From Thioalkalivibrio sp. XN8 (GTDB lineage: Bacteria > Pseudomonadota > Gammaproteobacteria > Steroidobacterales > XN24), in assembly GCF_011058255.1 (NCBI RefSeq), contig NZ_JAALFH010000066.1, positions 1-64,000 of the forward strand: a stretch of 64,000 nt of DNA. The letters run 5' to 3'. Numbering within the stretch: position 1 is the first letter of the stretch; each line of letters opens with the position of its first letter. Shown piece after piece: positions 2,008 through 14,964 of this stretch. The notes under the pieces are model-generated. The model saw only the letters and a list, made by a program, of their open reading frames with translations. It did not search any database and had not been told where the DNA came from. Position numbers and translations under genes: made by a program.

Positions 2008-2400
2008 ATGAGCACCGACATGAATTACGGCACCGGCCGTCGCAAGACTTCCTCCGCGCGGGTCTACCTTCGCCCGGGCAAAGGCACGATCACGGTCAAC
2101 AGCAAGCCGCTGGACGAGTTCTTCGGCCGGCGCACGGCCCGCATGATCGTTCGCCAGCCGCTGGAGCTGATCCGGATGGAGGATCGTTTCGATGTCGAAG
2201 TCACGGTCCACGGCGGCGGCACCACCGGCCAGGCCGGCGCTATCCGCCACGGCCTGACCCGTGCTTTGGTAGACTACGACCCCGCGCTGAAGGGGCCGCT
2301 GCGCCAGGCCGGGTTCGTCACTCGCGATGCTCGCGAGGTCGAGCGGAAGAAGGTCGGCCTGCGCAAGGCGCGTCGCGCCACCCAGTACTCGAAGCGCTGA
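2008..2400 (+). CDS. rpsI: 30S ribosomal protein S9
   Basis: A 130-residue S9 with its typical blocks: [18 protein letters not shown] near the N-terminus, [12 protein letters not shown]-like central region, [19 protein letters not shown], and the basic C-terminal tail ending in QYSKR that reaches the ribosomal P site. It follows rplM by 17 bases. A tRNA-like sequence begins only 23 bases after the stop, with no room for a separate promoter outside the coding region. Confidence 0.98.
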
Positions 2401-2423
2401 TCCGCGGATCGCGTTTCCCGAAT

Positions 2424-2494
2424 TGGGGGATCGTCTAGCGGTAGGACTACGGACTCTGACTCCGTCAACCCAGGTTCGAATCCTGGTCCGAGAT
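2424..2494 (+). tRNA. tRNA-Gln(CUG)-like gene with defective acceptor stem
   Basis: D arm: GTC/GAC stem (2433-2435, 2445-2447) around the loop TAGCGGTAG. Anticodon arm: ACGGA/TCCGT stem with loop CTCTGAC, anticodon CTG at 2456-2458, reading CAG (Gln). T arm: CCAGG/CCTGG with loop TTCGAAT (2475-2481). All three arms are perfect. The 5' acceptor strand TGGGGGA (2424-2430) also fits tRNA-Gln. The 3' strand, however, is TCCGAGA (2487-2493) instead of the expected TCCCCCA, so three inner/outer pairs (G-G, G-A, G-G) fail. No CCA is encoded, since the terminator stem begins at 2496. It may be a decaying or unusual tRNA, or a tRNA-like end of the rpsI transcript. Confidence 0.7.
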
Positions 2495-2495
2495 C

Positions 2496-2522
2496 TGGGC
2501 CCCGACAGGGGCCCATTTTTTT
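2496..2522 (+). terminator. Rho-independent terminator of rplM-rpsI-tRNA
   Basis: A perfect 8-bp stem (TGGGCCCC at 2496-2503, GGGGCCCA at 2508-2515) with a GACA loop, followed by seven T residues. It begins two bases after the last tRNA-like base, so it ends the whole ribosomal-protein/tRNA transcript. rpiA converges from the other side. Confidence 0.9.
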
Positions 2523-2575
2523 GGCTGGGGGACCAGGAAACGGTGCCGCGCAGCGGCGCCGGTCATCCTGGTCTC

Positions 2576-3235
2576 TTAGTAATCGATCCGCCGCACGCCC
2601 TCGTCGGTCGCAGCCAGCGTCAGCTGGGCCTTCTGGCGGCCGAAGATGCCCACCGTCACGACGCCGGGAATGCTGTTGATGCGGTCCTCCAGGCTGACGG
2701 GATCGACGATGTCGAGATGGCGTACGTCGAGAATCACGTTGCCGTTGTCGGTGACAAAGCCTTCGCGGTACTCCGGCAGGCCGCCGAGCTTGACCATCTG
2801 CCGGGCGACGAAGGAGCGTGCCATCGGGATCACCTCCACCGGCACGGGAAATTCGCCGAGCACGCGCACGATCTTGCTGTCGTCGACGATGCAGATGAAG
2901 CGCCGCGACGCGGCAGCCACGATCTTCTCGCGAGTCAGCGCGCCGCCGCCGCCCTTGATCATGTGACCGGCCCCGTCTACCTCGTCGGCCCCATCGATGT
3001 AGAGATCGAGATCACCGGTGGTGTTCAGCTCGCTGACCGCGATGCCGTGATCCCTGAGCCGGTCCGTTGTCGCTGTCGAGCTCGAGACCACGCAGGCGAG
3101 TTCGATGCCGCGCTCCGCGAGCGCGTCGATAAAACAATTGACCGTCGAGCCGGTGCCGATCCCGAGACGGCAACCTTCCGCCACCTCGGCGGCAGCGGCG
3201 CGGCCGACTGCGATCTTCTTGCTGGCCTGGTCCAT
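2576..3235 (-). CDS. rpiA: Ribose-5-phosphate isomerase A
   Basis: A 219-residue cytosolic RpiA that interconverts ribose 5-phosphate and ribulose 5-phosphate in the pentose phosphate pathway. Seen motifs: GTGSTV (27-32, phosphate binding), DGADEVD (81-87) and [11 protein letters not shown] (94-104) with the catalytic glutamate at 103. The ATG at 3235 was chosen because GGAGGG precedes it by seven bases; the longer reading frame upstream adds a non-homologous stretch. Convergent with the rplM operon. Confidence 0.95.
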
Positions 3236-3356
3236 GAACTGGCCCTCCGTACAAACATGGGTTCTTGAAAGAGCGAGGGCCGAGCCGCTCACGCGGACCC
3301 GGCCCTCGAAACTCGCTGCAGCTCCGGAAGGAGCCGGAACCGCGAGTCGGCGATGC

Positions 3357-3707
3357 CTACTTCTTCTTGGAAGCAGCCTTCTTCTTCGAAGCCGGCTTCT
3401 TCTTCGCGGCGGGCTTCTTCTTGGCAGCCGGCTTCTTCTTGGCAGCTGGCTTCTTCTTCGCGGCGGGCTTCTTCTTGGCAGCCGGCTTCTTCTTGGCAGC
3501 TGGCTTCTTCTTCGCGGCGGGCTTCTTCTTCGCCGCCGGCTTCTTCTTCGCGGCGGGCTTCTTCTTCGCCGCCGGACGCTTCTTCGCCGCCGGCCTCTTC
3601 TTCGCTACCGCCTTCTTCTTCGCCACCGGCTTCTTCTTGGTCACCGCCTTCTTCCTGGCAGCAGGTTTCTTTTTGCTGGCAGGCTTCTTCTTCGATGCAA
3701 CAGCCAT
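3357..3707 (-). CDS. Histone H1-like lysine/alanine/proline-repeat protein
   Basis: A 116-residue protein built almost entirely of PAAKKK-type units (K, A and P make up nearly the whole chain), with some R substitutions ([12 protein letters not shown]). It has no globular domain. This is the composition of AlgP/histone H1-like tails found in beta- and gammaproteobacteria and Bordetella BpH1, which bind DNA non-specifically and help compact the nucleoid or modulate transcription. The ATG at 3707 has GGAG six bases upstream; an ATG at 3713 overlaps that site and is unlikely. A promoter-like pair lies upstream at 3740-3768. The gene stands alone between rpiA and the EVE gene. Confidence 0.82.
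3394..3501. repeat. Two identical 54-bp tandem units inside the H1-like gene
   Basis: The unit from 3394 to 3447 is repeated exactly at 3448-3501, and a third copy begins at 3502 before diverging into shorter 18-bp units. Each 54-bp unit encodes three PAAKKK hexapeptides. The identity at synonymous positions implies recent duplication by slippage or unequal exchange, not selection on protein sequence alone. Confidence 0.85.
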
Positions 3708-3739
3708 GATCATCTCCGTGTAGTGGGTTCGCGCTGCTG

Positions 3740-4350: not shown

Positions 4351-4976
4351 GCTCTCGCTCCTTTCTTGCGCCGGCCTCGCTCGGTGACGACGAGATCCAG
4401 CGGCACGTCCCATGGTTGTTGCGGCACTGCCGGCACTTCCTGCAGCGCGAAGGCCGCGCCGATCAGCACCGGCCGCCGGCCGCGACGCTGCAGGGCGCGG
4501 TCATAATAGCCTCCGCCCATGCCGAGGCGGTGGCAGCGGGCGTCGAAGGCGACCAGCGGCAGGATCACGAGATCCAGTTGCGTCGCCTGCAGCCGGCGGC
4601 GGCCGACCGGTTCCGGAATACCGTAGCGATTGCATCGCAACGAGGCCGGCTCGTCCCAGGGCGCGAACGACATGACCCCGCGATGGCCCACCACCGGCAG
4701 GTAGAGTCGCTTGCCGCGCGCCCGCGCCGCAGGCGCGAGCGTGCGCAGGTCGGGCTCACCGTCGGCCGGCCAGTACAAGGCGATACTGCGCGCCGCGCGA
4801 AAGGCAGGCAGCCGGCGCAACTGGGCCACGATCGCGCGGGTCGCCAGCACGCGGCGGCTGCCCCGCAGGCTCCGTCGCCGGAGCCGGAGTTCAAGGCGCA
4901 GGGCCTGGCGTTCTTGCGCGCTGGGCGTGTTGCTGGGAATAGGGTGGCGCCTCCCGCCTGTGCCGTTACAGACCAT
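4347..4976 (-). CDS. fau: 5-formyltetrahydrofolate cyclo-ligase
   Basis: Converts 5-formyl-THF to 5,10-methenyl-THF with ATP. The family blocks are present: IALYWPADGEPDLRTL (about 65-80), the strand LDLVILPLVAFD and the signature RLGMGGGYYDRAL (about 149-161). The C-terminus ends R-G-R-R-K-K-G-A-R-A, and its TGA overlaps the EVE start. The only in-frame ATG before the conserved region is at 4976, and it lies inside the predicted 6S RNA. The true start may instead be a non-ATG codon between about 4860 and 4945, because homology begins near QALRLELRLRRRS. Position downstream of ssrS is the conserved gammaproteobacterial arrangement. Confidence 0.88.
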   Translation of the reverse strand: MVCNGTGGRRHPIPSNTPSAQERQALRLELRLRRRSLRGSRRVLATRAIVAQLRRLPAFRAARSIALYWPADGEPDLRTLAPAARARGKRLYLPVVGHRGVMSFAPWDEPASLRCNRYGIPEPVGRRRLQATQLDLVILPLVAFDARCHRLGMGGGYYDRALQRRGRRPVLIGAAFALQEVPAVPQQPWDVPLDLVVTERGRRKKGARA

Positions 4977-5132
4977 TGCTCTCGAACCGGAGCAATAGGT
5001 GGGGCCGGCAGTCGTGCCTAAGGCTTTCCGCTCGACGCGGACTTGCGCACTGGCGTCGACTGGTCCCGGCCCCTGGGTGGTTAATTAGGGTCGAGAGGAA
5101 CCCGGCCCATATCGAACACCGCAGGAGGCGCC
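4946..5132 (-). ncRNA. ssrS: 6S RNA
   Basis: About 187 nt on the minus strand between zapA and fau, the standard location. The ends pair: GGCGCCTCC (complement of 5124-5132) with GGAGGCGCC (complement of 4946-4954), extended by partly complementary TGCGGTG/CACAGGC. Internal blocks seen in gammaproteobacterial 6S RNAs occur in order: GTGTTCG, a TCCTCTCGACCC arm, and AAGCCTTA in the second half. 6S RNA mimics an open promoter and sequesters sigma70 RNA polymerase in stationary phase. The ends are estimated from the pairing and could be off by several bases. Confidence 0.88.
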
Positions 5133-14669: not shown

Positions 14670-14775
14670 GCCAGCGGGCTCCGAGGAGAGGGTTCCGGGG
14701 AGGCAATGATCCCCGCCTCGCCGCGCACTCGCAAGGGAGGCCCCGCCTCGGGTATCATCCGCCCCTCAACGTACC

Positions 14776-14964
14776 AGTCCCCGGTGGAGAGACCCCGGCC
14801 CGAGTGGCCCGGGGCGCCGAAGGCGCAATTACCGCCCGGAAACGCTCAGGCAAAAGGACGCGGGGGACGAGTTGGCTCTGGAGAGCGGCCCGGCATGGGC
14901 CCACCGAAGGTGAGGGGTGCCGCGGCTGCGCGGCACTGAATCTCTCAGGTAACCGGACAGAGGG
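14776..14964 (+). promoter_or_regulatory. Tandem glycine riboswitch
   Basis: Two aptamers in series upstream of gcvT. In the first, GTCCCC (14778-14783) pairs with GGGGAC (14863-14868), enclosing GGAGAGACC, GCCGAAGGCGCAA and AACGCTCAGGCAAAAGGAC. In the second, CTCTG (14876-14880) pairs with CAGAG (14958-14962), enclosing GGAGAG, CCACCGAAGGTGAGG and ATCTCTCAGGTAACCGGAC. CCGAAGG and CTCAGG-C/T-AAnnGGAC are the family's conserved joining segments. Binding of glycine normally turns on expression of glycine cleavage genes, which matches what follows. Confidence 0.95.

Follow-up and report, generated by a model that had tools for sequence, protein, structure and literature searches.

The window analysed here, a 64,000-nt stretch of the genome of Thioalkalivibrio sp. 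XN8, contains a tRNA-Gln(CUG) gene that is broken at its 3' end. Comparison with related genomes suggests that the gene forms part of a conserved rplM-rpsI-tRNA-Gln(CUG) operon and that its end was probably lost very recently, by a short deletion within palindromic, repeat-rich sequence. Judged on sequence, the element is a damaged ordinary gene and not a new regulatory element. If real, the break represents both a tRNA-tail repeat (RtT type) damaging its own host tRNA gene and the natural disappearance, in a GC-rich genome, of the tRNA cognate to the dominant glutamine codon.

The operon lies on the plus strand and starts with the open reading frame of rplM (ribosomal protein L13; positions 1562–1990), named from its sequence and its position before rpsI, the open reading frame for ribosomal protein S9 (2008–2400). 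The rpsI stop at 2400 is followed after just 23 nt by the tRNA gene, from which co-transcription of all three genes may fairly be inferred, much as the original prediction had placed the tRNA at the tail of the rplM-rpsI mRNA. The intact portion of the tRNA gene (2424–2489, plus strand; ARAGORN, Rfam tRNA model and DNA match) comprises 66 nt identical to those of the sister species G001. Next come the positions of the acceptor 3' strand, the discriminator and the CCA, damaged here (2490–2497, plus strand), where sequence comparison revealed GAGATCTG in place of the CCCAGCCA of relatives; the assembled sequence of the broken gene reads GGTCCGAGATCTGGG. A terminator recognised from sequence and fold (2497–2522, plus strand) is composed of a hairpin (2497–2514, GGGCCCC-GACA-GGGGCCC), an A and a run of seven T (2516–2522). 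Beyond the terminator, an inverted tRNA-end copy, TGGCTGGGGGACCAGGA (2522–2538, no strand assigned), matches the reverse complement of the 3' end of the intact tRNA, TCCTGGTCCCCCAGCCA, at 17 of 17 positions and has equivalents in relatives. It is followed by the apparent remnant of an RtT-type repeat unit with one hairpin left (2539–2564, plus strand), identified by eye from comparison with G001 and G002, which have RtT matches there, and by ATCCTGGTC (2565–2573, plus strand), a truncated repeat, in direct orientation, of the tRNA's 3' end that would be the final unit of a former array (compare L002, L003 and L169). To the inverted tRNA end, one hairpin and this truncated copy the unit in the window has shrunk. 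A convergent rpiA-like open reading frame occupies 2576–3292 on the minus strand; its name was derived from sequence.

When read in a 74-nt register (2424–2497), the gene has fully paired D, anticodon and T stems, a CUG anticodon and a perfect first 66 nt, consistent with the flawless arms initially described. Three of seven acceptor pairs fail, namely pairs 2, 3 and 4 (G2-G69, G3-A68 and G4-G67; U1-A70 is kept), and G73 is replaced by U and CCA by CUG. The failed pairs and missing CCA of the original prediction were therefore recovered, with the discriminator lost as well; the 7-bp acceptor stem, G73 and CCA encoded in relatives are all absent from the tRNA-Gln(CUG) of the window. The Rfam tRNA model scored 44.6 bits, yet only positions 5–66 of its 71 could be aligned. 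The intact tRNA of G001 has the cloverleaf as its minimum free energy structure (−26.9 kcal/mol), whereas in the window another fold prevails (cloverleaf −14.4 vs minimum −19.0 kcal/mol). Having neither an acceptor stem nor an encoded CCA, the product should not be aminoacylated. ARAGORN called tRNA-Gln(ctg) at 2423–2506 with a distorted acceptor; this 84-nt model, in which the acceptor pairs with the terminator, was rejected, as it requires an opened terminator and yields no CCA.

Of 29 genomes searched at the DNA level, 25 gave a match, own genome included. In 23 relatives the match was an intact, CCA-ended tRNA-Gln(CUG) as judged by ARAGORN and sequence, and the weak match in G011 was tRNA-Gln(UUG) instead. 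At the level of the order (396 genomes), 225 of the 232 good-quality genomes matched the intact tRNA, and intact orthologues hold the corresponding position across both family and order. Among the approximately 160 best matches listed, only the own genome stopped at query position 67 of 75, with all 66 tRNA nucleotides covered; the other short match among those listed, G170:C74, stopped at position 68 and is a contig-end variant. With the window rpsI as query, 80 rpsI-like loci were found in other bacteria, nearly all of them gammaproteobacteria, and tRNA-Gln(CUG) lay downstream in 22. The recurrence of the same tRNA in the same place in relatives rules out a tRNA at a chance position, and its presence there and in other gammaproteobacteria indicates, at the level of sequence, that the arrangement is of long standing and the break recent. 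The tRNA-Gln(CUG) genes at the ends of rplM-rpsI operons in Lysobacterales and other gammaproteobacteria thus share position, anticodon and 66-nt sequence with the window gene, unlike which they retain the acceptor 3' strand, discriminator and CCA, lost in the window genome only. Leaving the G170 contig-end variant aside, the picture is that of a recent pseudogene, with intact orthologues at the same locus and a break in one lineage. A normal acceptor stem at this locus in relatives, as found here, had been named beforehand as a refuting observation that would signal recent mutation or sequencing error, and it is to recent mutation or assembly error that the comparison points.

The age of the break was estimated from rpsI, in which 25 of 75 fourfold sites differ between the own genome and G001, a corrected divergence of ~ 0.22 changes per site per lineage. 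Over the whole branch, unconstrained evolution would be expected to introduce ~ 14.5 changes into the first 66 nt of the tRNA, in which zero differences from G001 were seen. Given such identity in the face of this rpsI divergence, the break is either recent or not real. Selection on the tRNA gene could have been absent for no more than ~ 20% of the branch, a longer period being unlikely, and the identity to G001 is equally expected under assembly error.

The surroundings of the gene are rich in repeats. In a number of relatives, the intact tRNA is followed by a unit of ~ 150–190 bp. It comprises the terminator hairpin, then the T arm and acceptor strand copied in inverted orientation, further hairpins, the tRNA 3' end copied in direct orientation and, often, the terminator again. 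A full 18-nt second copy of the tRNA end was found within 400 bp in 10 of 62 distinct tRNA-Gln(CUG) loci and a truncated copy in 3 of 62, against a rate of 0.0008 in shuffled controls. Directly behind tRNA-Gln(CUG), including in G001, G002 and G004, such units match the RtT RNA family (RF00391), with two scores above the 45-bit cut-off (L172, 48.5 bits; L185, 50.8 bits) and others below it (L170, 41.7; L002, 41.0; L181, 36.9; L013, 35.3; L270, 27.1; L003, 26.1 bits). No RF00391 match was obtained in window positions 2300–2700 at E ≤ 5 or in the whole assembly (G000) at E ≤ 0.1, and among 14 control genomes the family was found only in E. coli. RtT repeats are a feature of the E. coli tyrT operon. 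The units described here resemble them in lying behind a tRNA with direct copies of its 3' end between (26–51 bits in relatives at this locus), and differ in being located not behind tRNA-Tyr but behind tRNA-Gln(CUG), tRNA-Ser and tmRNA; what is left in the window is a remnant that the model does not match. The occurrence, in this taxonomic order, of RF00391 units with inverted copies of the tRNA's own 3' half after tRNA-Gln, tRNA-Ser and tmRNA genes suggests that RtT may belong to the tails of tRNA and tmRNA genes in general, as a broader kind of repeat than its tyrT-based description. Searches of the literature, in an incomplete collection of papers, returned no account of comparable tRNA-tail arrays.

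Several further observations were made on these units. RtT matches lie directly behind a tmRNA gene in one relative (L267, G004:C24) and adjoin tRNA-Ser(GCT) (L265, L269) and tRNA-Ser(TGA) (L268), most of them scoring under the family cut-off. In the own genome, similar units with no RtT match are found behind tRNA-Gly(CCC), Arg(CCG), Ser(GCT) and Ser(GGA) (L033, L037, L050 and L056); they start with the last 16 nt of their own tRNA and also carry its T arm in inverted form, exact over as many as 19 nt. Behind tRNA-Gln(CUG), the inverted T-arm copy (L002, L003, L013, L021, L169, L172 and others) often carries the loop TTCTCAT in place of TTCGAAT, producing tandem G-A mismatches against the tRNA, and in L021 it tracks a T-stem change in the tRNA that it copies.

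In relatives, RtT units re-copy the tRNA 3' end, in direct and inverted orientation, around the terminator. The simplest event to have broken the gene would be a deletion of ~ 11 bp (CCCCAGCCAAA) between T stem and terminator, joining GGTC to CGAGA; alignment of the left arm to G001 leaves a clean 11-nt gap (GGTC-----------CGAG). As a close variant, the array could have contracted onto a degenerate copy of the tRNA end, a route also made possible by truncated direct copies in relatives that end at nearly the same point as the window break, such as ATCCTGGTCCGTTCC in L169. Counting against either form of this account, the G001 spacer fails to fully account for the exact 7 nt GAGATCT, and loss of the cognate tRNA of the dominant CAG codon should carry a cost.

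The main rival to such a deletion holds that the real gene is intact and that the assembler mis-joined a stretch that forms both a long palindrome and a tandem array; we consider this unlikely overall, albeit a serious contender. The remainder of the tRNA gene looks selected, and the near-perfect palindrome of an intact ancestor (tRNA end, terminator and mirror; compare L168 and L169) would be hard to sequence. The assembly of G170 breaks at exactly such a site, with two variants that share 75 bp, one of them intact and the other ending in GGTCCCGCTTG. In addition, the 9-mer CCGAGATCT is also part of a common Illumina adapter, a post hoc observation that we count under this rival. Against assembly error, the locus lies within a 245-kb contig, a false join would require an overlap beyond the shared 9–12 nt, and the neighbouring RtT unit is also eroded in the own genome, which fits real decay. 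A repeat-rich neighbourhood of this kind explains the fragility of the site, making breaks and assembly errors alike likely. One G170 contig closes with tRNA-Gln(CUG) in its intact form, and another starts with the same 75 bp followed by GCTTG (L198 and L199, G170:C74 and C76), possibly a second truncated acceptor; the pair suggests either that the population is mixed or that assembly went wrong at a site of similar type. Intact and truncated variants of the same gene also give a hint of polymorphism. On the broadest reading, RtT-type arrays would be a general repeat that copies tRNA and tmRNA 3' ends and, through expansion, contraction or palindrome flipping, either renews or destroys the tRNA gene hosting it, and the window would show one allele of a reversible switch lowering CAG decoding; we regard this as quite improbable.

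Inversion of 40 bp (2490–2529) between the 9-bp inverted repeats TCCTGGTCC and GGACCAGGA, possibly reversible, would switch the tRNA off and flip the terminator. It looked compelling, since flipping these positions restores a perfect 74-nt tRNA-Gln(CUG) with CCA, the exact missing 17 nt are present in the right arm, and the arms alone score slightly better when inverted (23.5 vs 22.5 and 15.0 vs 11.5). However, relatives whose gene is intact regularly carry the inverted copy beyond the terminator as well, so that it is inherited and no inversion is needed, and whole-region alignment gave no preference for flipping (present vs inverted, 98.0 vs 95.5 for G001 and 89.5 vs 89.0 for G002). The loop GACA is also nearer to the GCAA of the sisters than is its reverse complement TGTC, and we therefore do not favour this improbable route. 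No independent copy of the broken junction was found in viral contigs. Template switching has been described as a process that creates hairpins (PMC8794818). The remaining alternative, raised by the original prediction, was that the tRNA-like fold has a function of its own at the 3' end of the rplM-rpsI mRNA, for instance as an RNase P processing signal. Its position would have it co-transcribed with rpsI, and cutting by RNase P or RNase E at the tRNA would process the rplM-rpsI mRNA in all relatives. A broken acceptor would weaken and not improve recognition by RNase P, and the lowest-energy fold in the window is no longer the cloverleaf. Examined relatives with the locus carry a canonical, CCA-ended tRNA-Gln(CUG) gene, and the break, confined to one genome apart from the G170 contig-end variant, is not a conserved design; true tRNAs in relatives thus led us to reject a conserved tRNA-like mRNA element, and the mRNA-element reading as a whole is very hard to credit. 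Bacillus cereus possesses a pseudo-tRNA, tRNAOther, with reported functions and a position flanking a genomic island (PMC3399842). Like the window gene it is a tRNA-like gene outside translation, but for the window gene nothing of that sort is indicated.

Decay of the tRNA gene by deletion, the reading favoured here, would leave CAG to tRNA-Gln(UUG), and the original suggestion of a decaying tRNA backed up by this wobble-reading isoacceptor fits the data. An intact tRNA-Gln(UUG) gene is present at G000:C32:138718, and both congeners have a copy with the identical sequence. Above the cut-off, 42 tRNA hits were counted in the own genome and 42 in G001, with one Gln(CUG) and one Gln(UUG) called by ARAGORN in each. 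As to the previously raised matter of another intact tRNA-Gln(CUG), none was detected in the own genome among all 42 hits (Rfam tRNA and ARAGORN). The tRNA list of the assembly likewise lacks Ile(GAU) and Ala(UGC), so an unassembled second copy of tRNA-Gln(CUG) may exist. Reading of CAG by a U34 tRNA is standard wobble, and loss of tRNA-Gln(CUG) would therefore be survivable, albeit not obviously neutral. The case resembles other tRNA pseudogenes in which a redundant isoacceptor is broken and the U34 isoacceptor remains; it differs in that CAG is the dominant glutamine codon here (777 CAG vs 83 CAA in the longest non-overlapping open reading frames of the window), which would make the loss less neutral than usual.

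Elsewhere in the window, a lysine/alanine/proline repeat protein with KKPAA repeats and a histone H1-like composition is encoded at 3357–3713 (minus strand). A 6S RNA was located at 4947–5130 (minus strand; RF00013, 77.9 bits) and a glycine riboswitch aptamer at 14774–14871 (plus strand; RF00504, 57.1 bits).
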